Positions 12,803 through 33,841 of a stretch of DNA of 38,431 nucleotides are shown here, piece by piece (the stretch's first letter is position 1; the number at the start of each line of letters is the position of its first letter). This stretch comes from an uncultured Pelagibacteraceae bacterium (lineage in GTDB: Bacteria; Pseudomonadota; Alphaproteobacteria; Pelagibacterales; Pelagibacteraceae). The notes under the pieces were generated by a model. That model had not been told where the DNA came from. It made no database searches and saw only the letters and a program-made list of their open reading frames with translations. The position numbers and the translations under genes are program-made. Location: positions 1-38,431 of the forward strand of contig CACOMK010000010.1 in assembly GCA_902628305.1 (NCBI GenBank), read 5' to 3'.

Positions 12803-13444
12803 ATGCATTTAATCCATCGAGGGATTGTAAGCAAAAAATATAAAGAAAACCTTTTAAATTCATTTAAACAATCATTTAAAAAAGGATTTGGAATAGAAAC
12901 CGATATACACGCAACTAAAGATCATAAATTTATCTGTTATCATGACTTTACTTTAAAAAGAATTTTTAAAAAAAAAGAGAGTATAAAAAACCTAAATTAT
13001 CAAAAAATAAAAGAAATCAGCGTTAAGTATCAAAAGCCAATACCTCTGCTCCAAGATTTGCTCAAGATATCAAAAAATAAATTCTTTTTATTTATTGAGA
13101 TTAAACCTAAATTTTCAATAAAATTGCTTAAAAAACTGATTAAAGAAACATCTAAATATTCAAAATGTGTATTTATCTCCTTTAAACATCAAAATATTTA
13201 TAACCTTTTAAAATTAAATAAAAAAACAAAGGTAGGTTTATCTTTTTCACCACCTACAACCATAAAATCAATAGCAAGGAAATCAAAAATAAAAAATGTT
13301 GATTGCTTAATTCTTGATAAATCGTATATAAAAAACAAAAAAATTCAGAGCTTAAAAATTAAAAAATATTTTTATACAATTAAAAACAAAACCGAATTCA
13401 TGAAATATAATAAAAAAAATAACTTAATATTTGAAAATTTATAA
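12803..13444 (+). CDS. Small glycerophosphodiester phosphodiesterase-like protein
   Basis: A roughly 213-residue protein with GDPD-family landmarks near the N terminus: HRG at residues 5-7, ENLLNSF, GIETDIHATKD, and CYHDFTLKRI, where the family's catalytic His normally sits (HD). FIEIKP later provides the usual metal-binding Glu. I chose the ATG at 12803 rather than the TTG at 12788 because it places HRG at the usual distance from the start and avoids overlap with the aldehyde dehydrogenase. The protein is shorter than typical GDPDs (about 240-250 residues) and extremely Lys-rich, and its 3' end overlaps the convergent 2OG oxygenase gene by 6 bp. It would hydrolyse glycerophosphodiesters, possibly glycerophosphocholine, which would link it to choline supply; that link is speculative. 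Confidence 0.75.
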   Translation: MHLIHRGIVSKKYKENLLNSFKQSFKKGFGIETDIHATKDHKFICYHDFTLKRIFKKKESIKNLNYQKIKEISVKYQKPIPLLQDLLKISKNKFFLFIEIKPKFSIKLLKKLIKETSKYSKCVFISFKHQNIYNLLKLNKKTKVGLSFSPPTTIKSIARKSKIKNVDCLILDKSYIKNKKIQSLKIKKYFYTIKNKTEFMKYNKKNNLIFENL

Positions 13445-14563
13445 TTTCTGCTTAAGATAATTTAATCTTCCAATTATTTCATCTCTATCCATATAATAAC
13501 CTTGGAGATGTCTATTACCTGAATTAGGATCAAACTCAGTTCTGCCATGAAGCAGTCTTCTATTATTAAATGAAAAAATATCTCCTGGTTCTAACCTAAA
13601 ATTAATTTGGAATTTGGAATCATGTAAAAGATTTCCAAAACGATGGTGTGCTTTATAAACAGAGTCCATTATGTCTGGATGACAATCTAATGCATCTAAA
13701 GTTGCAATACTGTATCTAACATCATTATAGTCCCCATCTTTAGTTAGTGAAATAGCTGTACCATGGACGCTTCTTATTGCTTCTTGTGTATAATCTTTAT
13801 CTCTAAATTTTAATGGTGTGTTTACTAAAATATCAAAAGTATCTTTTTCATTTTTTCTTAAAAAATCAGCAACCGCAAAAGCATCAACAGCTGAGGAATC
13901 TCCTCCTTTTGCTGAATTTACTAAACAATGTAGGAATTGATAACCTGGAGGATTTTCAAACCAAGGTAAATCCATATGATTATTTAATGCATGAGCAGTA
14001 TAAGCAGAATTATTCGGTTTAGGAATATTTATTACCTCAAAAGGGGTTTTAAAAAATGTTTCACGAGTATGACTTATACGATTTAAAACATTTAATGCAG
14101 AATTTTTTTCAATTGGTGAATTTTTTACAATTGCAATACCAGTATGGTGCAAAAGTTCTAACCATTTAATTAATCCAGATTCGGAATTTATTATTTCATC
14201 ATGATCAATTTGAATAGATTTTAAATCTTTTTCTAAAGAGTTATCCCAAAGTTTGTATGGTGAAATATATTTGCGTTTATGTTTTAAAGTATAACAATTT
14301 TCTCGTAACCATTTAGGATCATAATAACTTTTATGATCTCCCTCGCTCCATTCAATTTCCAATTTTCCATCTGAACTCATTGAATATGTTTTGGGATTAA
14401 TGCTTTGAGAAACTTTTAAAATATTAAACATTCTGTGTCTAGAATCTTTATCGTGCGCAGATGGACAATTATCTCTTAGCCAGAGATAGTTAAATTTACT
14501 CTCTTCACCATCATTCCAAACAATTTTTAGATATGTAGAATTTTTTTCTAATTTCGAAATCAT
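13439..14563 (-). CDS. Gamma-butyrobetaine hydroxylase-like Fe(II)/2-oxoglutarate dioxygenase
   Basis: A 374-residue oxygenase with the two-part layout of gamma-butyrobetaine and trimethyllysine hydroxylases: an N-terminal domain (about 1-100, YLWLRDNCPSAH and WLRENC) and a TauD-like catalytic domain. The iron facial triad is His196-x-Asp198 (NNHMDLPW) and His339 (LLHGRTEFD), with Arg351 placed to bind 2-oxoglutarate. The N-terminal zinc site seen in the human enzyme is incomplete: only Cys33 remains of the three clustered Cys, with His37 nearby. The gene is divergent from the betaine-type transporter across 137 bp. With carnitine dehydrogenase, BKACE and thioesterase in the window, conversion of gamma-butyrobetaine to carnitine is the simplest role. 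TmpA, which hydroxylates 2-trimethylaminoethylphosphonate, belongs to the same family and is the main alternative. Confidence 0.8.
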   Translation of the reverse strand: MISKLEKNSTYLKIVWNDGEESKFNYLWLRDNCPSAHDKDSRHRMFNILKVSQSINPKTYSMSSDGKLEIEWSEGDHKSYYDPKWLRENCYTLKHKRKYISPYKLWDNSLEKDLKSIQIDHDEIINSESGLIKWLELLHHTGIAIVKNSPIEKNSALNVLNRISHTRETFFKTPFEVINIPKPNNSAYTAHALNNHMDLPWFENPPGYQFLHCLVNSAKGGDSSAVDAFAVADFLRKNEKDTFDILVNTPLKFRDKDYTQEAIRSVHGTAISLTKDGDYNDVRYSIATLDALDCHPDIMDSVYKAHHRFGNLLHDSKFQINFRLEPGDIFSFNNRRLLHGRTEFDPNSGNRHLQGYYMDRDEIIGRLNYLKQKL

Positions 14564-14700: not shown

Positions 14701-15717
14701 ATGAAGTTTTTAAAAAGATTAACTATCTCGATTTTCCTTTTATCATCTTTGGTTGTGTCCAACGCAAACGCAGGTGACTGTAAGGCTAGATTGGGAGATT
14801 TTGACTGGAGTAGTGCTAATATTCATACAGCTATTACTACTTTTATTCTTGAAAAAGGATACGGTTGTGAAGTTTCTGTAACTAAAGGAAGTACAACTCC
14901 GATTATGGCCGCTCATTATGACGGTCAATTAGATGTTATTACTGAAGTTTGGTACGACAACATCATTGGTAATTACAAACCTCACGAAGAAGCAGGTACA
15001 ATTATCCATATGGGAACAAACACACCAGACTCTCAGCAAGCATTCTATGTTGATAAAGCTACTGCTGATAAATACAATTTAAAATCAGTTGAAGATATGA
15101 AAGATCCAAAAATAGCTGCGCTATTTAAAGATCCAGAAGATCCTTCAAAAGGTAGAATGACAAGCTGTATATCTGGTTGGACATGCTACACTGTTAACTT
15201 GGTTAAACAAAAAGAGTATGGTTTAGATAAATACTACACAAACTTTGATCCAGGTTCAGGAGGTGCATTGGATGCAGCTATAGCAGGTGCATTTGCTAAG
15301 AAAAAACCAATCTTTACTTATTACTGGGCACCAACTGGTTTAATGGGTAAAGTTGATCTTGTAAGATTAAAGGAACCTAAATTTGATCAAGCGTGCTGGG
15401 ATGCAATGTCTGCAGTTGTAGAAGACATTAAAGCAAATGGTCCAGATGCTTATAAACCTTCTTGCGCAAGTGAGTACAGAGATATGGCTTTAACTAAATC
15501 TGTTCTTGCTACTTGGGCAAAAGCTCATCCAAAAGAAAATGAGTTTATTGGAAAATATACTATTCCAACAGCTACTGTTAACAAGATGTTGGCATTTTAT
15601 GAAGATGAGTCAGGTGGTGATATGGAAGCTACTGCAATAGAGTTTTTAAAAACAGAAACTATGTGGAAAGACTGGGTACCAGCTGATGTTGCTAAAAAAG
15701 TTTCAGCAGCATTATAA
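14701..15717 (+). CDS. proX: Glycine betaine/proline-type ABC transporter substrate-binding protein (ProX-like)
   Basis: A 338-residue periplasmic binding protein of the ProX/OpuAC family. Residues 1-24 are a signal peptide ending in SNANA, and the mature protein starts GDCKARLGDFDW. Several Trp and Tyr residues (DFDWSSAN, EVWYDN, SGWTCY, YYWAPTG) could form the aromatic box that cages quaternary ammonium groups. A strong TAAGGAGA lies 7 nt before the ATG. The permease (ProW) and ATPase (ProV) genes follow, separated from this gene by a hairpin terminator, as in the Pot-like cluster. Context with carnitine and choline enzymes suggests glycine betaine, carnitine or gamma-butyrobetaine as ligand; the sequence alone does not separate these. 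Confidence 0.9.
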   Translation: MKFLKRLTISIFLLSSLVVSNANAGDCKARLGDFDWSSANIHTAITTFILEKGYGCEVSVTKGSTTPIMAAHYDGQLDVITEVWYDNIIGNYKPHEEAGTIIHMGTNTPDSQQAFYVDKATADKYNLKSVEDMKDPKIAALFKDPEDPSKGRMTSCISGWTCYTVNLVKQKEYGLDKYYTNFDPGSGGALDAAIAGAFAKKKPIFTYYWAPTGLMGKVDLVRLKEPKFDQACWDAMSAVVEDIKANGPDAYKPSCASEYRDMALTKSVLATWAKAHPKENEFIGKYTIPTATVNKMLAFYEDESGGDMEATAIEFLKTETMWKDWVPADVAKKVSAAL

Positions 15718-15739
15718 TCACTAAGAAAAATTTATTGAT

Positions 15740-15766
15740 AGAGCCCCTTTATGGGGCTCTTTCTTT
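15740..15766 (+). terminator. Terminator/attenuator hairpin between proX and proW
   Basis: An 8-bp perfect stem, AGAGCCCC (15740-15747) and GGGGCTCT (15753-15760), with a 5-base loop and followed by TTTCTTT. It lies 22 bp after the proX stop and 15 bp before the proW start. It fits a leaky intrinsic terminator that keeps binding-protein expression above that of the membrane components. Confidence 0.85.
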
Positions 15767-15781
15767 AAATAAAGAAAAACT

Positions 15782-16813
15782 ATGGAAGCATTAAAGAAAA
15801 ATAAAAAAATATTTTTTAATATTGGTTTGTTAGCTATTTTTGTTTGGTTGTTAATAACTAGTTACAGTCAATCAAAAAGAAAACCTGACAATATAGGAGA
15901 ATTATTAAATGATTTTTCATGGTTAGGAGGTAAATGGCCTAAGTGGTTAGACCTACCATTAATGAATTGGATAAATTCTGGTTTTAAAACACTTAACGAA
16001 AAATATGGATATATATTTGAGGCTATAAATAATGTTCTTCTTTATATGCTAATGCTTGTAAAAAACTTTTTAATTCAAGCTCCATGGCCTTTAGTAATAC
16101 TTGGTGTTATAGTATTAACTTATTTTGCAAGCGGTAGAAAAATAGGAACAACAGTATTTGTAGGTTTTTGTACTTTTTTTATAGGTTTCCTTCATCCAAT
16201 ATTTTGGCAAAAAGCAATTGAAACAACTGCAATAATGTTAATTGGAATATTTCTTTGTGTGGTTGCCGGTATTCCATTGGGAATAGCGATGGCGAGAAGT
16301 GCAAGAACTAGAAATGTTATTCTGCCAGTTTTAGACTTAATGCAAACCATTCCAAGTTTCTGCTATTTGATACCAGGTATTATGTTGTTTGGCTTAGGTG
16401 CTGTTCCTGCAATTATAGCTACATTTATTTATGCAGTTCCGCCTTTAGTTAGGCTTACAGATTTAGGAATAAGATTGGTTGATACTGAAGTTATTGAGGC
16501 TGCAGACGCATTTGGCGCAAGTAAAAAACAAAAACTATGGGGTGTGCAAATGCCTTTAGCTTTGCCCAATATAATGCAGGGAATTAACCAATGCACAATG
16601 ATGGCATTAGCTATGGTCGTTATTGCATCAATGATAGGTACTAGAGGTTTGGGAGATGAAGTGTTACTTGGTCTTCAACAATTAAATGTTGGAAGAGCTG
16701 CTGAAGCAGGAATTGCAATTGTTCTGTTAGCGATAGTTCTCGATAGAATTACCCAATCATATGGGGAAACCCTCCAAGAAAGAACAGCACCAAATACAAA
16801 GAAAGGTAAATAA
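15782..16813 (+). CDS. proW: Glycine betaine/proline ABC transporter permease (ProW-like)
   Basis: A 343-residue inner-membrane permease. A first hydrophobic segment (about 9-28) precedes a hydrophilic stretch of about 45 residues, then the membrane core begins. The core has the AMARSARTRNVILPVLDLMQTIPSFCY-type region typical of ProW/OpuAB and an EAA-like loop, VIEAADAFGASKKQKLWGVQMPLALP. It forms the homodimeric channel energised by ProV, whose start overlaps this stop by one base (TAATG). Translation initiation looks weak (only AAAGAAAAA upstream), in keeping with low permease demand and the preceding terminator. Confidence 0.92.
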   Translation: MEALKKNKKIFFNIGLLAIFVWLLITSYSQSKRKPDNIGELLNDFSWLGGKWPKWLDLPLMNWINSGFKTLNEKYGYIFEAINNVLLYMLMLVKNFLIQAPWPLVILGVIVLTYFASGRKIGTTVFVGFCTFFIGFLHPIFWQKAIETTAIMLIGIFLCVVAGIPLGIAMARSARTRNVILPVLDLMQTIPSFCYLIPGIMLFGLGAVPAIIATFIYAVPPLVRLTDLGIRLVDTEVIEAADAFGASKKQKLWGVQMPLALPNIMQGINQCTMMALAMVVIASMIGTRGLGDEVLLGLQQLNVGRAAEAGIAIVLLAIVLDRITQSYGETLQERTAPNTKKGK

Positions 16814-17838
16814 TGTCTAAAATAGAGATTAATAATGTTTACAAAATTTTTGGTAATAATCCTCAATCAGTTATGCCAATGGTAAAAGAAGGAGCAAATA
16901 AAGAGGAGGTATTAGAACAAACAGGTCACACAGTTGGTCTTGATAATGTTTCATTAAAAATAGAGGAAGGTGAGACCTTTGTTTGTATGGGTTTATCTGG
17001 ATCTGGAAAGTCAACATTAATTCGACATTTAAATAGGCTAATCGATCCTACTGACGGAGAAATTATAGTAGAAGGTACAAATGTTATGTCTTTTAATAAA
17101 GAGCAATTAATTGATTTTAGAAGACACAAGATGAGTATGGTTTTTCAAAGGTTTGGTTTATTTCCACACAAAACAGTGATCCAAAATGTTGGATATGGAT
17201 TGGAAATGCAAGGAAAACAGCTGGAAGAAATAAATAAAACAGCTATGGAAAAAATTGAAGCTGTAGGCCTAAGTGGTTTTGAAAATCAATTTCCAAATCA
17301 ATTATCAGGCGGTATGCAACAACGTGTTGGTCTTGCAAGAGCTTTAGCAACTGATAGTGATATAATGTTAATGGATGAAGCTTTTAGTGCTTTAGATCCA
17401 CTAATAAGAAGTGATATGCAGAAACAATTACTTGATCTTCAATCGGAATTAAAAAAGACAATCGTATTTATTACTCATGACTTAGATGAGTCTTTAAGAC
17501 TTGGAGACCATATTGGAATATTGAATGCTGGAAAACTAGTTCAAGTTGGAACTCCAGTTGATATCATTATGAACCCTGCAGATGATTATGTTAAAGCATT
17601 TGTGAAAGATGTTAATAGAGCAAAAGTAATTAAAGCAAAAATAATTATGAAAAGTACTAACCAGTCGGATGATATTGATAAAACAAATTTAATTAAAGTA
17701 AATGAGGATCAATTTATTGAAGAATTTTTACCACAAATTGTATGTTCGAATTCTAATTGTGAAGTAGTTGATAAAAGTGGAAATGTAAAAGGTTATATAT
17801 CTAATAAAGAATTACAGACATCACTTACAAAATCATAA
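16813..17838 (+). CDS. proV: Glycine betaine/proline ABC transporter ATP-binding protein (ProV-like)
   Basis: A 341-residue ATPase with the ProV-type N-terminal extension (KIFGNNPQSVMPMVKEG). It has Walker A GLSGSGKST, the Q-loop segment FQRFGLFPHKTV, the signature LSGGMQQRVGLARAL and Walker B IMLMDEAFSALDP. The DEA instead of DEP is characteristic of ProV/OpuAA. After about residue 270 only a short C-terminal segment remains, ending in a region that resembles part of a CBS domain (VVDKSGNVKGYISNKEL). E. coli ProV, at about 400 residues, carries two CBS domains that sense ionic strength, so osmotic gating may be reduced. An SDR gene follows 3 bp later. Confidence 0.92.
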   Translation: MSKIEINNVYKIFGNNPQSVMPMVKEGANKEEVLEQTGHTVGLDNVSLKIEEGETFVCMGLSGSGKSTLIRHLNRLIDPTDGEIIVEGTNVMSFNKEQLIDFRRHKMSMVFQRFGLFPHKTVIQNVGYGLEMQGKQLEEINKTAMEKIEAVGLSGFENQFPNQLSGGMQQRVGLARALATDSDIMLMDEAFSALDPLIRSDMQKQLLDLQSELKKTIVFITHDLDESLRLGDHIGILNAGKLVQVGTPVDIIMNPADDYVKAFVKDVNRAKVIKAKIIMKSTNQSDDIDKTNLIKVNEDQFIEEFLPQIVCSNSNCEVVDKSGNVKGYISNKELQTSLTKS

Positions 17839-18630: not shown

Positions 18631-19025
18631 TTTGAAAATCTTTTATATTTTGGAAGTTTATCAGTTATTTTATAAAAATCTGATTTAGAACTGACAAATA
18701 TATTTCGCACTGTTTTAAGACCTGTTTTTCCGTTAAACATGCCTGCTGCTATCGAAATATTATCTGAATTTTTAAATTTAAAAAAAATACTAGCCCCACA
18801 TTTATTACAAAAACCTCTTCTTGCATGAATAGATGATTTAAACCATTTAAGTGTTTTTTTATTTATAAATTTAATATCCTTATTTTTAACATTAGAGTAG
18901 GCACCATATGATCCATGAGTTTTTCTACACTGAATACAATGACAATTTGAAACGTTTCTGTGTTTACCACTAGTTTTAAACTTTACTCCTTTACATAAAC
19001 AACTAGCTATCAAAGTTCTCTTCAT
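18627..19025 (-). CDS. GFA-family protein (CENP-V/GFA zinc fold)
   Basis: A 132-residue zinc protein with the GFA cysteine pattern: Cys9 and Cys11, Cys28, Cys30 and Cys33 (NCHCIQC), and Cys73 and Cys76 (FCNKCG). The name-giving member was proposed to speed condensation of formaldehyde with glutathione, though most relatives have no demonstrated reaction. It is the last gene of the minus-strand operon that begins with a Rieske oxygenase, and its start overlaps the carnitine dehydrogenase stop by one base (TAATG). If the Rieske enzyme removes methyl groups oxidatively, formaldehyde would be released and a GFA protein would make sense as a handler. That link is inference. Confidence 0.82.
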   Translation of the reverse strand: MKRTLIASCLCKGVKFKTSGKHRNVSNCHCIQCRKTHGSYGAYSNVKNKDIKFINKKTLKWFKSSIHARRGFCNKCGASIFFKFKNSDNISIAAGMFNGKTGLKTVRNIFVSSKSDFYKITDKLPKYKRFSN

Positions 19026-19969
19026 TATCCTCTAATTTTATTTTCGTATTTTTTTCTTAACTTTTGAAGATCAACTAAATACTGATCTCTTATATTTGAT
19101 ATCATTGCAACCGATTTACCTTTGGCTTGTTTTGCTGTCCCTGAAATAAGTCTAGATGATAGTTTTTTTGATAATTTTGGAGCTTTTAATTTTGTCCAAG
19201 GTAATTTTAAAGCAGGTCCAAATTGTTCAAGCATATGTTTCATGCCAGTTTTTCCACCTGCTAGATGAAAAGTTAAAAATGTACCCATTAAGGACCATCT
19301 TAGTCCTGGACCATCCTCAATCGCTCTGTCTAATTCCTCAGTAGTTGCATATCCTTCGTTAATAATATGTAGCCCTTCTCTCCATAAAGCTTCTTGCAAC
19401 CTATCAGATAAATATCCAGGTAACTCATTTTTTACCATAATTGGATTCATGGAAATCGATTTATAAAATTTTTTAGCTTCTTTTAAAAATTTATTTTTTG
19501 TTTTTTTACCTGGCACAATTTCAACAGCAGGTAATAAATAGACAGGATTAAATGGATGTCCAATCATTGTTCTTTCAGGATTTTTACATTTAGAATAAAT
19601 TCTTGAAGGTAACAGGCCTGAAGAACTTGATGAAATAATTGCATTGGGTTTAGCATATTTTCCAATTAAGCTCATCAATTTAGTTTTTAAAGCATAATTT
19701 TCACTAGCACATTCTTGAACAAAATCTGCATTTCTTAGAGTTTCTTCAATTGTAGTAAAAAATTTAAAATTTTTAAGATTAATTGATTTTTTATTAAAAA
19801 GTTTTTTTACATATGGCCAAGTTCTTTTAATTTCTGAAATTAAATTTTTTTTTAATTTAAGATCTTTGTCGTAAGCATAAACAATTTTATTATGTGCCAA
19901 ACATCTAATAATCCAACCTGTACCAATTACACCAGTGCCTACTACTGCTACTTTATGAATTCTTGTCAT
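19025..19969 (-). CDS. L-carnitine dehydrogenase (CdhA/LcdH-like)
   Basis: A 314-residue member of the 3-hydroxyacyl-CoA dehydrogenase family. It has the NAD motif GTGVIGTGW (11-19), ASENYALK, SSSSGLLPS, the catalytic-His region GHPFNPVYLLPAVEIVPG, and GPGLRWSLMGTFLTFHLAGG in the C-domain. The last block closely matches what I recall of bacterial L-carnitine dehydrogenases, not acyl-CoA enzymes, and the length (about 315) also agrees. It oxidises L-carnitine to 3-dehydrocarnitine in the cytoplasm. The next two steps of the pathway (BKACE, thioesterase) are encoded at 24849-25736 and 26501-26968. It starts one base after the MetX-like gene's stop, in a tightly packed operon. Confidence in the substrate is good but rests on memory of motifs. 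Confidence 0.85.
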   Translation of the reverse strand: MTRIHKVAVVGTGVIGTGWIIRCLAHNKIVYAYDKDLKLKKNLISEIKRTWPYVKKLFNKKSINLKNFKFFTTIEETLRNADFVQECASENYALKTKLMSLIGKYAKPNAIISSSSSGLLPSRIYSKCKNPERTMIGHPFNPVYLLPAVEIVPGKKTKNKFLKEAKKFYKSISMNPIMVKNELPGYLSDRLQEALWREGLHIINEGYATTEELDRAIEDGPGLRWSLMGTFLTFHLAGGKTGMKHMLEQFGPALKLPWTKLKAPKLSKKLSSRLISGTAKQAKGKSVAMISNIRDQYLVDLQKLRKKYENKIRG

Positions 19970-24540: not shown

Positions 24541-24849
24541 TTATATAATATCAATTGGGCTAAGAACTTTTACCTCTATAGGTTTGTTTAAAAGATCATT
24601 AATTTTAGATCTATAATTTTTATAATGCTCTGTATTCCTATGAAAATCTAACGCTTCAGTATCTTTATAAATTTCAAATAAATGAAAAGATTCAATTTTT
24701 TTTTCTGAATTTTTTTCCCCATAAAAATTATAAAGTTCATTACCCTCTTCTAATCTCGTTGGTTTTGTCATAGACAATAAAATTTCTCGTACATCATTAA
24801 CTTTATCTTCCTTGGGATAAAAACTTGCTATAACAGTTATCTTTGACAT
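24541..24849 (-). CDS. Antibiotic biosynthesis monooxygenase (ABM)-domain protein
   Basis: A 102-residue single-domain protein with the dimeric ferredoxin-like ABM fold pattern: ITVIASFYPKEDKVNDVREIL at the start, TRLEEGNELYNFY, and SFHLFEIYKDTEALDFHRNTEHY, the last typical of YgiN-like small proteins. Such proteins can be cofactor-free monooxygenases or have unknown roles. It overlaps the BKACE stop by one base (TAATG), so it is translated with it. The following 153 bp to the Rieske gene contain no gene I can detect. No specific reaction is assignable; linkage to dehydrocarnitine cleavage is by position only. Confidence 0.8.
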   Translation of the reverse strand: MSKITVIASFYPKEDKVNDVREILLSMTKPTRLEEGNELYNFYGEKNSEKKIESFHLFEIYKDTEALDFHRNTEHYKNYRSKINDLLNKPIEVKVLSPIDII

Positions 24850-25736
24850 TAATAATGTTTTACTAATTTTAGTTTTTCTCTTGTCTCAGCTGGTGTCATT
24901 GGTGAATAACCAATTTCATCTATTATTCTTATTGCTTTTTCTACCAATTGATCATTAGTTGCCAACTTACCTTTTGATAGATACAAATTATCTTCTAATC
25001 CAACTCTAGGGTTTCCCCCCATAAGAACAGTTTGCGCAACAAATGGCATTTCATTTCTTGAAATTGCAAATCCTGACCATACGCCTTCTTTGGGCATTAT
25101 ATCTTTCATCGCTTGCATAGCTGAAATTGTTGCAGGCGCTCCCCATGGAATTCCTAAACACATTTGAAAAAGAGGTGGATCACTTAAAAGTCCTTCTTTA
25201 TATAGCTGTGAACCAAACCACATATTACCTAAATCAAATGCTTCTATTTCTGGTTTCACTTTAATTTCTTGCAACTTTTTTGCAGCTTTTCTTAAATCAT
25301 TTGGTGTGTTCACTGTAATAACTGAGCTGTCACCAAAATTTAGTGTGCCTGCATCCAATGTGCAAATCTCGGGAAGAAATTGTTCAGCGTTTGCAATTCT
25401 TTCCATTACGTTTGCCATGTCAGTCATTGGACCAAATTCTAAAGGATTTTTTCCTTGTCCAATATCAAGGTCTCCCCCCATGCCAGTTGTTAGGTTCAAA
25501 ATTACATCTGTGTCACTTGATCTGATTCTATCAATAACCTCTTTATATAATTCCAATCTTCTACTTGGAGTTCCATCATTCTCTCTAACATGAATATGAG
25601 CGATGGCAGCTCCAGCTTTTGCAGCCTCTATTGAGGCTTTGGCAATTTGTTCTGGTGTTTTTGGTAAATCGGGATGCTTGCTAGCAGTGTCACCTGATCC
25701 AGTTACTGCACACGATATAAAAACTTTATTGCTCAT
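24849..25736 (-). CDS. Beta-keto acid cleavage enzyme (BKACE), dehydrocarnitine-cleaving type (CdhC-like)
   Basis: A 295-residue zinc enzyme of the 3-keto-5-aminohexanoate cleavage family. The zinc ligands His47 and His49 are in AHIHVRE, and NLTTGMGG, LGNMWFGSQL, CLGIPWGAP and MGGNPRVGLEDNLY are further family blocks. The N terminus (SCAVTGSGDT followed by KHP, TPEQIA) resembles dehydrocarnitine-cleaving members as I recall them. In that role it reacts 3-dehydrocarnitine with acetyl-CoA to give acetoacetate and betainyl-CoA. Carnitine dehydrogenase and a matching thioesterase in the window support this choice over lysine fermentation. It is divergent, across only 35 bp, from the aldolase-thioesterase-oxygenase operon, and followed by the ABM gene. 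Confidence 0.85.
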   Translation of the reverse strand: MSNKVFISCAVTGSGDTASKHPDLPKTPEQIAKASIEAAKAGAAIAHIHVRENDGTPSRRLELYKEVIDRIRSSDTDVILNLTTGMGGDLDIGQGKNPLEFGPMTDMANVMERIANAEQFLPEICTLDAGTLNFGDSSVITVNTPNDLRKAAKKLQEIKVKPEIEAFDLGNMWFGSQLYKEGLLSDPPLFQMCLGIPWGAPATISAMQAMKDIMPKEGVWSGFAISRNEMPFVAQTVLMGGNPRVGLEDNLYLSKGKLATNDQLVEKAIRIIDEIGYSPMTPAETREKLKLVKHY

Positions 25737-25771: not shown

Positions 25772-26500
25772 ATGGAAATAACCGAATTACAAAAAGATTT
25801 AGCTGCTACTTTTAGATGGACTGCAAGACTAAATATGCACGAGGGTGTTGCAAACCATTTTAGTGCGTGTCTTCCAGGCTCCTCAACAGATTTTTACGTC
25901 AATAAAGCTGGCATACATTTTAGTCAAATTAAAGCTAGTGATTTAATTTTAGTGACTAAAGAAAATATTAATGAACTAAAGAATAAGCCTAATTTAATTG
26001 ACCCTACAGCAATTAGCATTCATGGTGCAATACATCAAAAAATTCCACATGCAAAATGTATTTTTCATTGTCATTCAAAGTATGCAACAGCTTTATCAAC
26101 ATTAAAAGATCCTATAATGAAACCTATAGATCAAAATACTATGATATTTTATAATAGAGTCTCAGTTTATAATGAATTTGGAGGATTAGGATTTGAGGAT
26201 GAGGCTATAAAGATGGCTAGTGCTTTAGGAAACAAACAACATATGTTACTTGCTAACCATGGAATTATTACAACAGGACAGACAGTTGCAGAAGGTTTTA
26301 ATTATTTATATTATTTTGAAAAAGCAGCAGAAACTTACTTAACTGCTTTAGCCTCAAATCAAGAATTGAATGTAGTTAGCGAAGATGTTGCTGAAAAAAC
26401 AGCTCAAGAAACTGCAAACTATCCAATTGATTTAGCAAAATTACATCTTGATCAAATAAAATTAATTTTAGATAAAGAAGAACCAGATTATAAAAATTAA
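25772..26500 (+). CDS. Class II aldolase/adducin-family protein
   Basis: A 242-residue protein with the fuculose-aldolase fold. Three zinc-binding His are seen: His99 and His101 (FHCHS) and His163 (ANHGI). The usual catalytic Glu a few residues before the first strand (PSSEW-type) is missing; the segment reads PTAISIHGAIH. Aldol cleavage by the classic mechanism is therefore uncertain, as in adducin-like and decarboxylase-like members. It is the first gene of a + operon with the thioesterase directly abutting (0 bp), two oxygenases and a GMC dehydrogenase. Start ATG at 25772 lies 35 bp from the divergent BKACE start. The substrate is unknown. Confidence 0.82.
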   Translation: MEITELQKDLAATFRWTARLNMHEGVANHFSACLPGSSTDFYVNKAGIHFSQIKASDLILVTKENINELKNKPNLIDPTAISIHGAIHQKIPHAKCIFHCHSKYATALSTLKDPIMKPIDQNTMIFYNRVSVYNEFGGLGFEDEAIKMASALGNKQHMLLANHGIITTGQTVAEGFNYLYYFEKAAETYLTALASNQELNVVSEDVAEKTAQETANYPIDLAKLHLDQIKLILDKEEPDYKN

Positions 26501-26968
26501 ATGTCTATACATATAGCGAATCAAATTATCAAAAAAGAGTGGACAGACTATAATAATCATATGAACATGGCTTACTATGTTCTTATTTTTGATCAAATTT
26601 GGGAAATAATGTTACAAAAATTTAAGATGGGTGAGGACTCAGCAAAAACTAACAAAATGAGCACCATGGTTGTTGAAACACACACAACTTATAATAATGA
26701 GGTAAAGGAGGGTGAAGAGGTAGAAATTAATCTTACCTTTTTTGATCATGACAAAAAAAGATTACACTTCAAAATGGAAATGCTTGAAAAAACTACAAAA
26801 AAATTATCGGCAACTTTAGAAATGTTATCTTTGTATATTGACTTAAATAAAAGAAAAGTGGCAGAATTTGAAGAAGATAAAATTAAGTTAATGGATGATT
26901 TTATTAAATTAAACAAATCAAATTTTAAAGATAATGATCTTGTAATAACTGGAAAGTTGAAAAAATAA
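26501..26968 (+). CDS. Hotdog-fold thioesterase, betainyl-CoA thioesterase-like (CdhB-like)
   Basis: A 155-residue 4-hydroxybenzoyl-CoA thioesterase-type protein. The N-terminal motif WTDYNNHMNMAYYVLIFDQ contains the DYN-HMN block with the family's active-site Asp/Asn, and VVETHTTYNNEVKEGEEVEI is the second typical strand. In carnitine degraders this protein hydrolyses betainyl-CoA, the BKACE product, to glycine betaine and CoA, so with carnitine dehydrogenase and BKACE the three-enzyme set would be complete. Its ATG follows directly on the aldolase-like gene's stop, and its own stop overlaps the next ATG (TAATG). Other short acyl-CoAs are possible substrates if the pathway reading is wrong. 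Confidence 0.82.
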   Translation: MSIHIANQIIKKEWTDYNNHMNMAYYVLIFDQIWEIMLQKFKMGEDSAKTNKMSTMVVETHTTYNNEVKEGEEVEINLTFFDHDKKRLHFKMEMLEKTTKKLSATLEMLSLYIDLNKRKVAEFEEDKIKLMDDFIKLNKSNFKDNDLVITGKLKK

Positions 26969-27801
26969 TGGAAATTAAGTTACTTTCTGGTGCATTAGGA
27001 GCTGAAATTAAAGGTATAGATTTAACTGATGTTTCAGATTTAAATTTTAACAAAATTAATGATCTTCTTTTAGAACATAAAGTTATTTTTTTTAGAGATC
27101 AGCCTATTACTAAAGAGCAACAAATTGCACTTGCTGAAAAGTTTGGACCTCTAGAAACTCATGCTTATGTAAAAGGATTAAACGATTATCCTGAAATTGT
27201 CAGAATAATAAAAGGTAAAGAAGAAAAAAACCAATGGGGTGAGAATTGGCATAGTGACGTTAGTTATAACGCAAAACCAACAAAAGCTGTAATTTTAAAA
27301 TCACTAAAAATACCTCCTGTTGGTGGTGATACTTGTTTTTCCAATATGGAGTTAGCTTGGGAAACACTAGATGATAAAATTAAAGAGAAAATAAAAGATA
27401 GAAAAGCAATTCATAGCTCACTTGGTGCAGAATTTTTCATCGATAACTATAAGTATATGGAAGGAAATGAAAAAAGAAATTATGACTCTTATTCAAACGA
27501 ACATCCAATTGTTAGAACACATCCAGAAACAGGTAAGAAAATCTTATTTGTTAATTGGACTTACACTAAACAAATTATTGGATTGGAAAAAGAAGAAAGC
27601 GATCAAATATTAAAAGAAATATTTGAGCATCAAGCTAGATTGGATCTAACATGCAGGTTTAGCTGGACAGAAAATACTGTAGCAATCTGGGATAATAGAA
27701 GTGTTATTCATTACGCAATTGCAGATTTTTTTCCTGGAAGAGGTTTAGGATATGAGAGAATTATGGATAGAATTGCAATTGAGGGGGACAGACCTCAATA
27801 G
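26968..27801 (+). CDS. TauD/TfdA-family Fe(II)/2-oxoglutarate dioxygenase
   Basis: A 277-residue dioxygenase with the facial triad His95-x-Asp97 (NWHSDVSY) and His248 (SVIHYAIADF); Arg264 or Arg268 (ERIMDR) would bind 2-oxoglutarate. Length and the FFRDQPITKEQQIALAEKFGPLE start are those of TauD-type enzymes, which hydroxylate carbon next to a sulfonate, phosphonate, ether or amine. It is immediately followed (5 bp) by an HD-domain oxygenase of the PhnZ/TmpB type. In both known systems of this kind (PhnY-PhnZ, TmpA-TmpB) a 2OG hydroxylase makes the alpha-hydroxy compound that the HD enzyme then cleaves. By that logic this enzyme hydroxylates the substrate of the pair; its family (plain TauD) is not that of PhnY or TmpA. 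Confidence 0.87.
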   Translation: MEIKLLSGALGAEIKGIDLTDVSDLNFNKINDLLLEHKVIFFRDQPITKEQQIALAEKFGPLETHAYVKGLNDYPEIVRIIKGKEEKNQWGENWHSDVSYNAKPTKAVILKSLKIPPVGGDTCFSNMELAWETLDDKIKEKIKDRKAIHSSLGAEFFIDNYKYMEGNEKRNYDSYSNEHPIVRTHPETGKKILFVNWTYTKQIIGLEKEESDQILKEIFEHQARLDLTCRFSWTENTVAIWDNRSVIHYAIADFFPGRGLGYERIMDRIAIEGDRPQ

Positions 27802-27806
27802 TCATC

Positions 27807-28343
27807 ATGCAAGTAATTGAAAAAATAATATCAAATTTTACAAATAACCAATCACTCTATATTGGAGAAAACGTAACCATGTCTCAACACATGATTCAAG
27901 CTGCGATGCTCGCTGAAAAAGCTAAATGTAAAAAAGAAGTTATTTGCTCATGTCTATTGCATGATTATGGACATTTCATTATTGAAAACCCAGATGAGTT
28001 AGTTGAGTCAAATTTAGATGGTGAGCATGAGAGTATAGGTTATGAATATTTAAAAAGTTTCTTTAAAGAGGAGGTTGTTGAACCAATTAAATATCATGTT
28101 CTTGCTAAGCGTTATTTAGCTAGAAATAAAAATTATTATAATAAACTTTCTGAGGCTTCAAGAGTAAGCCTTAATTTACAAGGTGGAATTTTAAAGGATG
28201 ACGAATGCAGAGAGTTTGAGAAAAAAAAATATTTCAAATCATCAATTCTTGTTAGAAAATTTGATGAAGCGGCAAAAAGGACAGGCATCAAAATGAAGTC
28301 TATTCATCAATATAAAAAATTACTAACATCAAGTCTTATATGA
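27807..28343 (+). CDS. HD-domain mixed-valent diiron oxygenase, PhnZ/TmpB-like
   Basis: A 178-residue HD-domain protein. The complete diiron ligand set of PhnZ can be placed at nearly identical spacing: His28, His52-Asp53 (LLHDYGH), His74, His97 and Asp153. The PhnZ-type loop Tyr18-x2-Glu21 (YIGE), ten residues before the first His, is also present. The later blocks RYLAR, LSEASRVSLNLQGG and DDECREFEK also resemble PhnZ as I recall it. PhnZ cleaves the C-P bond of 2-amino-1-hydroxyethylphosphonate; TmpB cleaves the trimethylated analogue to glycine betaine and phosphate. Given the quaternary-amine setting, a TmpB-like reaction is attractive, but other alpha-hydroxy substrates are possible. 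It overlaps the BetA-like gene by 4 bp (ATGA). Confidence 0.82.
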   Translation: MQVIEKIISNFTNNQSLYIGENVTMSQHMIQAAMLAEKAKCKKEVICSCLLHDYGHFIIENPDELVESNLDGEHESIGYEYLKSFFKEEVVEPIKYHVLAKRYLARNKNYYNKLSEASRVSLNLQGGILKDDECREFEKKKYFKSSILVRKFDEAAKRTGIKMKSIHQYKKLLTSSLI

Positions 28344-29920
28344 AGTTTGATTATTTAATAATTGGTGCTGGTTCAGCTGGCTGTGTGCTCGCAAATCGAT
28401 TAACTGAAAATGGAAAAAACACTGTAGCAATATTTGAAGCTGGTAAACCTAGTGATATTTGGAAAGTAAACATGCCACTTGCAATTTTATATACAATGCA
28501 TGATCCCAAATATAATTACAAATATTATTCAGAGCCAGAGCCTTATTTAAATAATAGAAAATTATTTTGCCCAAGAGGAAAAATGATCGGTGGGTGTTCT
28601 GCTCACAATGGAATGGTTTATGTAAGAGGAAATCCAAACGATTATCAAAGATGGGCATCTTTTGGATTAACAGATTGGTCATATGAAAAGGTATTGCCTT
28701 ATTTTAAAAAAATTGAGACTTGGTCTGAAGGAGAGAATGAATACAGAGGTGGAAACGGCATATTACCAGTTAATCAATCTAAAAATAAAAATCCTCTATT
28801 TAAAGCATTTATCGATTCAGCTGGAGAAGCTGGTTATAAAATAAATAATGATATGAATGGTAAAGAACAAGAAGGTTTTGGTATGTATGATGTAACCATT
28901 CACAATGGAGAAAGAGCTAGTGTTTCAAAATATTATTTAAATCCAGTAAAAAAAAGAAAAAATTTAAATATTTTTACCGACTCATTTGTTGAAAAAATTA
29001 TTTTTGATGGAAAAAAGGCAATAGGTATTGAGGTAAAAATAAAAAATAAAGTTGAAAAAATTTATGCAAATAAAGAGGTTATACTAAGTGGTGGTGCAAT
29101 TAATTCACCTCAGTTGTTAATGCTATCAGGAGTTGGACCTAGTCAACATTTGAAAGACAAAGGAATTGATGTTGTTCATCATCTTGAAGGTGTAGGTAAA
29201 AATTTGCAGGATCATTTAGAAACCTACGTTCAACAAGAGTGTAAAACATCTGACACTCTGTATTCTTATATTAATAAATTAAATATGTTAAGGATCGGTA
29301 TTCAGTGGTTTTTATCAAAAACAGGACCATGCTCGACTTCATTTTTAGAGGCTGGTGGATTTTGCAAATCATCGCCTGAACGAGAATATCCTAATATTCA
29401 ATTTCATTTTTTTCCTGCATTTGTAATTGATCATGGATTAGTAGATCCTGACAGGCATGGATATCAATTGCACGCAAGTCCAAACCACCCAAAAAGTAGA
29501 GGTCATGTAACCTTAAATAGTTCAAATCCATATGACTATCCAAAAATTCAATTTAATTATTTAGAACATGAAGATGATTTAAAACAAACTATTGAGTGTA
29601 TTCATGTCGCAAGAAAAATTTTAGGACAAAATTCTTTAAAACCATATGCAGGAAAAGAAATTGGACCCGGAGAGCATGCTGACACTAATGAAGTATTTGA
29701 GGAGTATATTCGATCTAAAGCTGAAACTGCTTATCATCCATCTTGCACTTTAAAGATGGGAATTGATGAACAAGCTGTTGTTGATGATAAACTAAAAGTG
29801 CATGGTTTAGAAAATCTTAGAGTTGTTGATGCCTCTGTAATGCCAGAAATTACAAGTGGAAACTTAAATGCTCCAACATTAATGATTGCTGAGAGAGCGT
29901 CGGAGTTTATTTTAAATTAA
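28340..29920 (+). CDS. betA: GMC-family flavoprotein, choline dehydrogenase (BetA)-like
   Basis: A 526-residue FAD enzyme with the N-terminal dinucleotide motif GAGSAGCVLANRL (7-19), the GMC signature PRGKMIGGCSAHNGMVYVRG, and the C-terminal active-site blocks AYHPSCTLKMG (catalytic His) and TSGNLNAPTLMIAERAS. Length and motifs fit choline dehydrogenase, which oxidises choline to betaine aldehyde, but GMC alcohol dehydrogenases for other alcohols look alike. It is the last gene of the + operon, coupled by ATGA to the HD oxygenase, and converges with the ureohydrolase gene with one base between them. No terminator hairpin is visible there. A role in glycine betaine formation fits the neighbourhood. 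Confidence 0.8.
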   Translation: MKFDYLIIGAGSAGCVLANRLTENGKNTVAIFEAGKPSDIWKVNMPLAILYTMHDPKYNYKYYSEPEPYLNNRKLFCPRGKMIGGCSAHNGMVYVRGNPNDYQRWASFGLTDWSYEKVLPYFKKIETWSEGENEYRGGNGILPVNQSKNKNPLFKAFIDSAGEAGYKINNDMNGKEQEGFGMYDVTIHNGERASVSKYYLNPVKKRKNLNIFTDSFVEKIIFDGKKAIGIEVKIKNKVEKIYANKEVILSGGAINSPQLLMLSGVGPSQHLKDKGIDVVHHLEGVGKNLQDHLETYVQQECKTSDTLYSYINKLNMLRIGIQWFLSKTGPCSTSFLEAGGFCKSSPEREYPNIQFHFFPAFVIDHGLVDPDRHGYQLHASPNHPKSRGHVTLNSSNPYDYPKIQFNYLEHEDDLKQTIECIHVARKILGQNSLKPYAGKEIGPGEHADTNEVFEEYIRSKAETAYHPSCTLKMGIDEQAVVDDKLKVHGLENLRVVDASVMPEITSGNLNAPTLMIAERASEFILN

Positions 29921-31922: not shown

Positions 31923-32876
31923 ATGACAAGAGATAATAATTCAAAAGGTATATTTTTAATTATCATTGCGATGACTTTATTTGCGATGCAAGACTCTTTA
32001 ATTAAATATATTTTTGAAAAATCCTCTCTTTATGAGATTTTTTTTGGAAGATATTTTGTTGCAGCTGTTTTACTTTTTAGTTACATAAAATTTAGAAAAC
32101 AAAAAGTTTCTTTAAAAACTTATTATCCTATTTTAACAATTGTTAGAGTAGTTCTTCACTTTTTAGCATTTTCAGCTTTTTTTATTTCTCTTACTTATAT
32201 GCCCTTAGCAACAGCAAATGCCCTATTTTTCTCTTGTCCTTTTTTTGTATCTATTTTTGCTAAATTTTTTTTGAAAGAGTTTATTGGGATAAGAAGATGG
32301 TCAGCAATTGTATTTGGTTTTGTGGGAGTTTTTATTGTGCTTGATCCAAACTTTTCTGACTTTGAATATAAAAGTTTGCTTCCAGTATTATGTGCATTTT
32401 TTTATGCTGCATCAATGACAATTACAAAATACACATCTGATAAAGACGATGTAAATACTCAACTATTTTATTTTTATTTAATAGCTCTAATTTTATGTGG
32501 TCTTATATATTTATTTATGGGAAATGGACAACTGAATAACCCAGACTTTGATCCAACTACACAGTTTATTTTTAGAGAATGGTTTTCAAACATTGAATAT
32601 ACATGGAAGTTTATCTTGTTTTTTGGTTTTGTCGCCTCGATAGCTTTTCTCTGTATATTTTCAGCTTACATTGTGGCTTCACCTTCTGTAGTGTCTCTAT
32701 TTGAATACTCATTGATTATTATGTCAATGATACCTGGATATTTTTTATTCAATGAAATTCCTTCAGGCAGAACATTTTTTGGAGTTGCGTGTATAATAGC
32801 AGCTGGAATTTATATTTACTTTAGAGAAAAAGCTAGAGATCAATACATTGCAACAGAAACTCCCGTAAGAAGATGA
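31923..32876 (+). CDS. EamA/DMT-family transporter (second of tandem pair)
   Basis: A 317-residue protein colinear with its upstream neighbour, sharing NSKGIFLIIIAMTLFAMQDSLIKYIF at the start (NPKGIAYILIAMMVFSVQDGIMKHIY upstream in the same positions), the RRWSAIV segment, the ASPSVVS block before the last spans and a near-identical tail IYFREKARDQ. This marks a tandem gene duplication. The ATG directly abuts the upstream TAA, and its own stop overlaps the next ATG (ATGA), so the three genes are translationally coupled. Sequence divergence between the pair is clear across the spans, suggesting different specificities or a heterodimer. Confidence 0.88.
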   Translation: MTRDNNSKGIFLIIIAMTLFAMQDSLIKYIFEKSSLYEIFFGRYFVAAVLLFSYIKFRKQKVSLKTYYPILTIVRVVLHFLAFSAFFISLTYMPLATANALFFSCPFFVSIFAKFFLKEFIGIRRWSAIVFGFVGVFIVLDPNFSDFEYKSLLPVLCAFFYAASMTITKYTSDKDDVNTQLFYFYLIALILCGLIYLFMGNGQLNNPDFDPTTQFIFREWFSNIEYTWKFILFFGFVASIAFLCIFSAYIVASPSVVSLFEYSLIIMSMIPGYFLFNEIPSGRTFFGVACIIAAGIYIYFREKARDQYIATETPVRR

Positions 32877-33841
32877 AAAAAAGCTATATACCAACAATTA
32901 ATATATCCTCGCTAATTGAAAATAATTTTGAAACCCAAAGTGCGTTTAAAACAATTAAAGAAATTGAAAAAGCTTGTGTTAATATAGGATTTTTTCAAAT
33001 TACAGGTCATGGAATTAATTTAAAAGAAATTTACAAAATCTGTGAGGTTGGAAATAAATTTTTTAATTTATCTGATAATAATAAAAGAAAATTATCTCCA
33101 AAAAAATGGAATAAAAAAAATAAAAATTTATACAGGGGGTATTTTCCTAACGATGTAAATGGAAAAGAAGGTTTAGACATAGGTGATTTAAAAGTAACAA
33201 AAAAATATTCTACAAATCTAAACAATCAATATATAGAGTATCTTAAACTAGATAAATGTTTTAACAAAAAATCAATTAACATTTTAAATAAATATTTTGA
33301 TAATATTTACAGTATAAGTGAAACTTTATTTAAAAGTATAATCAAACTTAATAGAAAGAATCCAAATATTTCAAAGAAAGCTTTTTCAAGATTAAAAACA
33401 TTAAGTACATTGAGATTTAATTATTATCCTAATCAGACTAAGCCAGTAGAAATATCAAAACAAGATGGGGTTGCTCTTGGATGTGAAACTCATGTAGACA
33501 GCGGAGTATTTACAGTTCTATATCAAGATAAAAAAGGTGGATTGCAAGTTCAAAATAGAAAAAACAAAAAATGGTATAATGTACCATTTAACAAAAAAGC
33601 CTTGGTCGTAAATACTGGTAGAGCTCTAGAATTTTTAAGCAGGGGCAAATTTAAAGCAACAAATCACAGAGTTTTGTGGAATAGAAGCAAGAGACTCTCT
33701 GTTCCTTTTTTCTTTGAGCCTTCTTACGATTTCAAAATGAACAAATCATTTTTAAATGGAAGCAAATTAAAGAATAATGGTGAAATTTATGAGAAATTTC
33801 TCAACAAATCATTAAAGAAATTTATTGAATATCAACGTTAG
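32873..33841 (+). CDS. Isopenicillin N synthase-like Fe(II)/2OG oxygenase
   Basis: A 322-residue oxygenase of the IPNS/plant-type 2OG family. The iron triad is His207-x-Asp209 (THVDSG) and His265 (TNHRVLWN), and the 2OG-binding Arg274-x-Ser276 (RLSVPFF) follows. The N terminus (IPTINISSLI, GFFQITGHGI) is the usual DIOX_N region. It is coupled by a 4-bp overlap to the second EamA transporter. The family hydroxylates or desaturates small molecules including amino acids; the substrate is not evident. Very Lys- and Asn-rich codons follow the local AT bias. It is followed by a 105-bp gap and a new transcription unit. Confidence 0.85.
   Translation: MKKSYIPTINISSLIENNFETQSAFKTIKEIEKACVNIGFFQITGHGINLKEIYKICEVGNKFFNLSDNNKRKLSPKKWNKKNKNLYRGYFPNDVNGKEGLDIGDLKVTKKYSTNLNNQYIEYLKLDKCFNKKSINILNKYFDNIYSISETLFKSIIKLNRKNPNISKKAFSRLKTLSTLRFNYYPNQTKPVEISKQDGVALGCETHVDSGVFTVLYQDKKGGLQVQNRKNKKWYNVPFNKKALVVNTGRALEFLSRGKFKATNHRVLWNRSKRLSVPFFFEPSYDFKMNKSFLNGSKLKNNGEIYEKFLNKSLKKFIEYQR

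Follow-up and report, generated by a model that had tools for sequence, protein, structure and literature searches.

What does an oxygenase of the PhnZ/TmpB type do inside an operon that appears to be devoted to carnitine, choline and glycine betaine? The question is raised by contig CACOMK010000010.1, positions 1 to 38,431 (the window, meaning this whole stretch of 38,431 nucleotides), from an uncultured Pelagibacteraceae bacterium (assembly GCA_902628305.1, G000 in our set, 69.7% complete). Here the gene for a small HD-domain protein starts 5 bp past that of a TauD-family Fe(II)/2-oxoglutarate (2OG) dioxygenase and overlaps a choline-dehydrogenase-like gene of the GMC oxidoreductase family by 4 bp. 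The original prediction, made from the sequence alone, took TauD and the HD protein for a pair that carries out a two-step oxidative cleavage. Our analysis bears out the HD protein as an oxygenase of a familiar type, genuine and well conserved, that is found here in a new setting; its TauD neighbor is frequent but optional. We propose, with about an even chance of being right, that it would cleave the carbon-phosphorus (C-P) bond of an N-methylated hydroxyphosphonate to yield glycine betaine and phosphate, as an accessory to the betaine operon.

Sequence, ligands with the YxxE loop, and the fold model all place the HD protein in the PhnZ/TmpB oxygenase family. Up to an E value of 1, its sequence matches in the PDB comprise four distinct sequences only, TmpB (6npa, 4.5e-33) and three PhnZ proteins (best 1.8e-27). 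Residues Y18, E21, H28, H52, D53, H74, H97 and D153 align with those of PhnZ and TmpB and are identical in all 49 sequences of the SAR11 clade described below. The original prediction was therefore right about the full PhnZ-type ligand set and the Tyr18/Glu21 loop (the role of the YxxE motif is given in excerpts of PMC8177086), as no iron ligand or loop residue is missing. Lys101, Ser118, Gln125, Arg150 and Lys157 are common to the SAR11, TmpB and PhnZ sequences of the alignment. The structure model (predicted local distance difference test score, pLDDT, 94.5) matches TmpB with Z 26.6 (1.5 A over 167 residues) and PhnZ with Z 26.1, the matches spanning 167-174 residues; MIOX follows at Z 10.5, and the remaining chains listed, hydrolases included, reach at most 9.4. 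That the protein is an ordinary HD phosphohydrolase, a reading to which its match to the HD superfamily domain PF01966 lends something, has next to no chance in view of the complete dinuclear ligand set and the YxxE loop. The gap between Z of about 26 and the hydrolase scores of 9.4 or less led us to reject it.

In a tree of 112 HD sequences (identical proteins merged, 117 to 109, and fragments left out), the Pelagibacteraceae proteins form a single clade of 49 sequences with support 100/99 and a long stem of 1.02; the contig scan for relatives supplied the best 80 of 496, which makes the distant sample a partial one. The 47 members that stem from operons are set off, with support 94/72, from two further ones, L052 and L133, which were found close to TmpA-like genes. 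Occurrence of the clade in at least 33 records with Pelagibacteraceae or Candidatus Pelagibacter in the title speaks against contamination or an assembly artefact. The isolate codes of these records resemble those of single-cell genomes, though some titles call them metagenome-assembled genomes. The clade may be akin to TmpB. For a comparison of TmpB-type HD proteins with other, mostly phn-operon, ones, both reference groups were picked by hand; in the 19 columns that tell the two apart, the clade agrees with TmpB in 8, with the others in 3 and with neither in 8. Met29, beside the ligand His28, and Phe57, beside His56, are TmpB-like in 49 of 49 clade sequences. Two other SAR11 loci, L060 and L065, represent a second HD lineage, 34-38% identical to the window protein, and a phnZ survey could lump both.

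Adjacency of TauD and the HD gene is real and common, and the pairing is frequent but not obligate. Among 68 SAR11 operons with a GMC gene, 42 carry both genes, 13 TauD only, 4 HD only and 9 neither (Fisher p 0.003, with no correction for kinship), and TauD is present in 42 of the 46 that bear HD. Recurrence of the order in 42 of 68 operons dismisses chance adjacency; the TauD-only and HD-only operons dismiss strict pairing just as well. Mapped on the GMC tree, HD shows 6 changes and TauD 2; in the 4 independent pairs that differ in HD, TauD is on average unchanged in 3.5 and changes in the same direction in 0.5, the pairs being too few for significance. The count merged only identical GMC proteins, so that close strains remain, and dropped 13 rows: duplicates (L038, L102, L118, L120), stretches cut by a contig end (L044, L054), those with no full GMC gene (L052, L131, L133, L053, L082) and those of other context (L225, L235). 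Among these, L053 has TauD and HD, L082 has TauD without HD, and L131 lies on the same contig as L052. Rows without the thioesterase gene were kept only when both TauD and HD were present, a rule that cost no TauD-only row. Locus L048 was counted as TauD-positive although its TauD is split in two, and L132 likewise shows two TauD pieces. Of 54 clade loci long enough to show it, 51 have the GMC gene after HD (some genomes enter twice), the exceptions being L133 and the single contig of L052 and L131.

The picture within the genus is similar. Its 121 genomes (G000-G120; sets copied by hand) are 55-100% complete, which makes single absences weak. The HD clade occurs in 23 and TauD in 35, with both in 19 (Fisher p 2.7e-9); TauD is thus found in 19 of 23 genomes with HD versus 16 of 98 without. 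This co-occurrence partly reflects the shared operon and ancestry. Operons with thioesterase, TauD and GMC but no HD and operons with thioesterase, HD and GMC but no TauD both occur. TauD is present, with no HD match at E 1e-8, in G004 (96% complete) and G123 (98%). In two of the HD-only genomes, G089 and G010, there is no TauD match at E 1e-60, and a TmpA-like gene is present. The genome of L052 (G020) has a separate contig with TauD and GMC and no HD. As an observation in its own right, the TauD frame is split in two at L048:7182-8007 (G071) and L132:844-1680, with HD and GMC intact downstream, which is possibly a case of TauD decay with HD retained. Of the predicted two-step pair, then, the co-occurrence stands, whereas dedicated pairing in the form proposed finds no support, given the TauD-only and HD-only operons, the TauD orthologs without HD and a TmpA-like gene elsewhere in the genome. 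Conservation of the pair in relatives holds for 42 of the 68 SAR11 operons; the other 26 show other states, and the pair was not seen, within 1.6 kb of HD, at any of 76 HD loci outside SAR11. TauD is a frequent, dispensable companion of HD that may or may not act in sequence with it. No description of a TauD-HD pair was found in the one literature library searched.

TauD itself is the plain 277-residue family member that had been described: it matches PF02668 (E 3.5e-59, 201 bits; Pfam cut-off 27) and keeps the Fe triad H95, D97 and H248 together with both C-terminal arginines, R264 and R268. With the taurine dioxygenase equivalog NF007104 it scores 228.4 bits, below the cut-off of 313. It retains the His and Arg that bind sulfonate in E. 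coli TauD, which makes an oxyanion substrate plausible. E. coli D94, F104 and F206 are replaced by W, Y and Y, possibly an aromatic cage. These pocket residues are identical in 15 other aligned orthologs, with and without HD, distant ones included, and in the TauD tree the proteins with and without an HD neighbor are intermixed (6 changes). Orthologs 64-76% identical occur in other SAR11 loci without HD. According to Pfam scans of two such loci, TauD adjoins an EamA transporter and an alkylsulfatase-like gene in L091 and lies between glycosyltransferase and polysaccharide-lyase genes in L093. The alkylsulfatase-like metallo-beta-lactamase near the EamA-TauD pair (L091:3413-5140, minus strand; another SAR11 family) hints that this TauD might act on a sulfur ester or a sulfonate. 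The structure model of the window TauD was poor (pLDDT 56.4) and was left unused.

A second candidate for the hydroxylation step resides on another contig of the same genome, where a TmpA-like dioxygenase (G000:C1:30650-31750; L218:8651-9754) scores 343 bits with the TmpA model (cut-off 400) and 274 with that for gamma-butyrobetaine (GBB) dioxygenase. Such genes are present in 83 of the 121 genus genomes (the set includes a broken copy in G071), versus 23 for the HD clade. In six genomes that carry HD and are 58-85% complete, no TmpA-like gene was seen. Only in L131 and L133 is it close to HD, no more than 1 kb away and separated by a single gene; the window HD has TauD directly upstream, not TmpA. 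The HD gene of L133 is flanked on one side by a gene with FAD and GcvT domains, which we label as of dimethylglycine/sarcosine-dehydrogenase type, and on the other, past one gene, by the TmpA-like gene. A Pfam scan of 20 window proteins gave no PhyH-type (PhnY) match.

Outside SAR11, 76 HD loci contain no TauD relative within 1.6 kb of HD, with 29 of them reaching only about 1.5 kb on each side, and 32 have a relative of TmpA or GBB dioxygenase near HD. In 3 of 31 loci examined more widely, all from other Alphaproteobacteria (L162, L242, L243), such a dioxygenase-HD pair adjoins relatives of BKACE and carnitine dehydrogenase. L162 additionally has a thioesterase relative and an FAD/GcvT-domain gene, and its HD protein passes the TmpB cut-off (339.8 bits versus 300); L242 and L243 share one genus code (g175), so that the three loci represent two lineages. 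By analogy, these pairs beside carnitine genes give independent support for an HD step that would feed the same glycine betaine pool.

As regards phosphonate uptake, the genome of the window, which is 69.7% complete, has no match to the phosphonate-binding protein family PF12974 at E up to 0.001, in line with the earlier statement that no phosphonate transporter is nearby. Two genomes that have the other, 38%-identical HD type, G120 and G054, give strong PhnD-type matches (157 bits) at some 5 kb from that gene, whereas none of 22 clade genomes does; the third genus genome with this HD type, G097, has a PhnD-type match of 22.6 bits only. A phosphonate substrate would probably have to enter by a system other than the phosphonate-binding type, and the ProXWV transporter of the window is a candidate for its uptake.

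The known systems nearest to the window protein share some features with it and differ in others. According to excerpts of two papers (PMC8177086, PMC10574752), TmpA-TmpB of Leisingera caerulea forms glycine betaine and phosphate from 2-(trimethylammonio)ethylphosphonate. The window HD shares with TmpB the fold, the ligands, the YxxE loop, the residues beside two histidines and the betaine setting, and TmpA/GBB-dioxygenase-HD pairs adjoin carnitine genes in L162, L242 and L243. It differs in being only 44% identical over 150 residues, in its separate clade, and in having a plain TauD upstream and a GMC gene downstream. PhnY*-PhnZ acts on 2-aminoethylphosphonate (2-AEP), and a methylphosphonate pair is described in Gimesia maris (PMC10574752, excerpt). 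Like that system, ours combines the HD oxygenase fold and ligands with a 2OG enzyme adjoining the HD enzyme in part of the genomes. Unlike PhnZ, the window HD (34% identical) has Met29 in place of Ser, and the 20 window proteins scanned include no PhnY-type match. The Phn-HD proteins (TIGR03276) of SAR11 loci L060, L065, L068 and L069 belong to the same profile family and come from the same bacterial order, but are 34-38% identical to the window HD. By reading, the neighbors of L060 and L065 are phosphonate-transport-like and phosphonatase-like genes, and strong PhnD matches lie near 2 of 3 such Phn-HD genes in the genus.

Together, these data suggest a model in which the HD protein, as a diiron oxygenase, would break the C-P bond in an (R)-1-hydroxyphosphonate, most likely an N-methylated 1-hydroxy-2-aminoethylphosphonate, i.e., the TmpB substrate or a close analog. 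Glycine betaine and phosphate would be the most likely products, with roughly an even chance. The gene would be an accessory member of an operon whose apparent role is to convert carnitine and choline to glycine betaine, and the hydroxylated substrate may come from the adjacent TauD, from the TmpA homolog elsewhere in the genome, or from outside the cell. The fold, the ligands, the clade, the operon and the TmpA-HD pairs beside carnitine genes elsewhere are established by the analysis, and the oxygenase chemistry, the HD substrate, the product and the source of the hydroxyl group are inferred. Several points weigh against the model. The activity itself is read from sequence and a structure model. 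In the free HD tree the clade branches alongside HD proteins from other phosphonate loci of SAR11 (support 72/0); in favor of the model, holding it beside TmpB gives a likelihood 10.4 higher, and neither tree is rejected (approximately unbiased test, p-AU 0.72). The protein is of the right family, yet it falls below every curated subfamily cut-off, with 171.5 bits for TIGR03276 (E 1.2e-50; cut-off 214.6), 155.7 for the TmpB equivalog NF049941 (cut-off 300) and 139.7 for the PhnZ1 model (cut-off 300). Among controls from loci with TmpA relatives, L058 (364.7) and L162 pass NF049941, L146 (270.3) and L148 (224.5) fail, and all four of these TmpB-like proteins are also narrowly under the TIGR03276 cut-off, at 198-211 bits. 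Weak partial PF12974 matches of 20-29 bits are present in 16 of 22 clade genomes and absent from 6; that of G024, at 28.9, is just above the cut-off of 27, making an odd phosphonate-binding protein possible. Finally, the TmpA-like gene is found in 17 of 23 genomes with HD and in 66 of 98 without (p 0.62), which disqualifies it as a co-occurring partner of HD.

How the C-P cleavage model is to be completed depends on the source of the hydroxyl group, and the two readings considered next are two ways of completing it, with overlapping odds. The original prediction, in which TauD has taken the place of TmpA and hydroxylates C1 of a quaternary-amine phosphonate for dedicated cleavage by HD, draws on the 5 bp spacing, the strong co-occurrence in the genus and the position of TauD upstream of HD, which is that of the TmpA relative in most other lineages examined. 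The retained sulfonate-site residues and the possible aromatic cage fit it as well. We nevertheless consider it on the unlikely side: HD changes without TauD, each gene occurs in operons without the other, G004 and G123 have TauD but no HD match, the TauD frame of L048 is split with HD and GMC intact, and the TauD pocket and tree are indifferent to the presence of HD. Its fullest form, in which a plain TauD displaced TmpA, the new HD clade completes the cleavage to glycine betaine and phosphate, and uptake is of the betaine type, is unlikely.

Slightly more probable, though still less likely than not, is the idea that TauD and HD are independent members of the betaine operon. TauD would release sulfite from a quaternary-amine sulfonate, for example N,N,N-trimethyltaurine, leaving betaine aldehyde for oxidation by the GMC enzyme, and HD would complete the reaction of the TmpA homolog. 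Operons with either gene alone, the TmpA-like gene in the same genome (one gene from HD in L131 and L133), its presence in the TauD-less G089 and G010, and the sulfonate-site His and Arg of TauD all speak for it. The sulfonate substrate is purely inferred, however, and the TmpA-like gene scores below its cut-off, occurs regardless of HD and is not seen in six HD genomes. A departure from C-P cleavage altogether, with HD acting on a C-C or other C-X bond of a non-phosphonate quaternary amine much as MIOX acts on inositol, would suit the carnitine and choline setting, the long stem of the clade and the lack of a clear phosphonate-binding protein in clade genomes. It is improbable, since the fold matches TmpB and PhnZ far better than MIOX, and Lys101, Ser118, Gln125, Arg150 and Lys157, residues whose roles are putative, are shared with both.

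If the C-P cleavage model is true, a route to betaine with release of phosphate would connect the use of phosphonates by SAR11 with osmolyte catabolism; glycine betaine can replace the glycine that SAR11 requires (PMC12478193, excerpt). Excerpts of the survey literature differ in how they treat marine phnZ. One survey reads it as 2-AEP degradation and assigns 45% of the marine phnZ sequences to Pelagibacterales (PMC9381506), another divides phnZ into subclades, among which the 2-AEP form is rare (PMC8316502), and a review puts abundance estimates anywhere between one of the least abundant and the most abundant (PMC10574752). Should the present clade have been counted in the first survey, part of its 2-AEP signal would represent another reaction.

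The genes around HD (Table 1) bear out the quaternary-amine cluster of the original prediction by profile matches, several of them below curated cut-offs, and the spacing and sizes of TauD and HD are as it gave them. Five co-directional frames, separated by gaps of 0-5 bp or overlapping by 1-4 bp, look like one operon because of their common strand and tight spacing, in the order class II aldolase protein, thioesterase, TauD, HD and GMC/choline dehydrogenase. The BKACE, carnitine dehydrogenase-like and GBB-dioxygenase-like genes lie on the opposite strand, with the ProXWV transporter further out. Carnitine is converted to glycine betaine via a dehydrogenase, a BKACE enzyme and a thioesterase. 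The gene set reads as this route plus choline oxidation, with the thioesterase probably acting on betainyl-CoA and the BKACE enzyme probably cleaving dehydrocarnitine.

Table 1. Genes of the window discussed in the text, with profile scores in bits.
Feature	Position	Strand	Remarks
HD-domain oxygenase, PhnZ/TmpB type (mixed-valent diiron family), 178 aa	27807-28343	+	member of the Pelagibacteraceae clade
TauD-family Fe(II)/2OG dioxygenase, 277 aa	26968-27801	+	frequent, non-obligate neighbor of HD
GMC oxidoreductase, choline-dehydrogenase subfamily	28340-29920	+	PRK02106 743, above cut-off 605; TIGR01810 betA 681, below cut-off 732
4HBT_2 thioesterase	26501-26968	+	resembles C-terminal part of carnitine 3-dehydrogenase PRK07531, 62 (cut-off for whole fusion 592)
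Class II aldolase/adducin-family protein	25772-26500	+	first gene of apparent operon; only some relatives have it
BKACE/KCE-family enzyme	24849-25736	-	best model 3-keto-5-aminohexanoate cleavage enzyme, 240, below cut-off 382
L-carnitine dehydrogenase-like	19025-19969	-	PRK07066 352, below cut-off 414
Gamma-butyrobetaine dioxygenase-like	13439-14563	-	beside ProX; TIGR02409 314, below cut-off 415; TmpA model 270, below cut-off 400
ProX/ProW/ProV-type ABC transporter for quaternary amines	14701-17838	+	ProX 87, below cut-off 215; ProW and ProV named from translations

The window contains no tRNA and no Rfam match at the gathering cut-off. In HD-only operons and several HD-less relatives, a CitE/RipC-like lyase of the HpcH/HpaI family is encoded upstream of the thioesterase (L041:6679-7539). 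A further 2OG oxygenase, with no NCBIfam match at E 0.01, is encoded downstream of the operon in the window (32873-33841) and combines DIOX_N and 2OG-FeII_Oxy domains.

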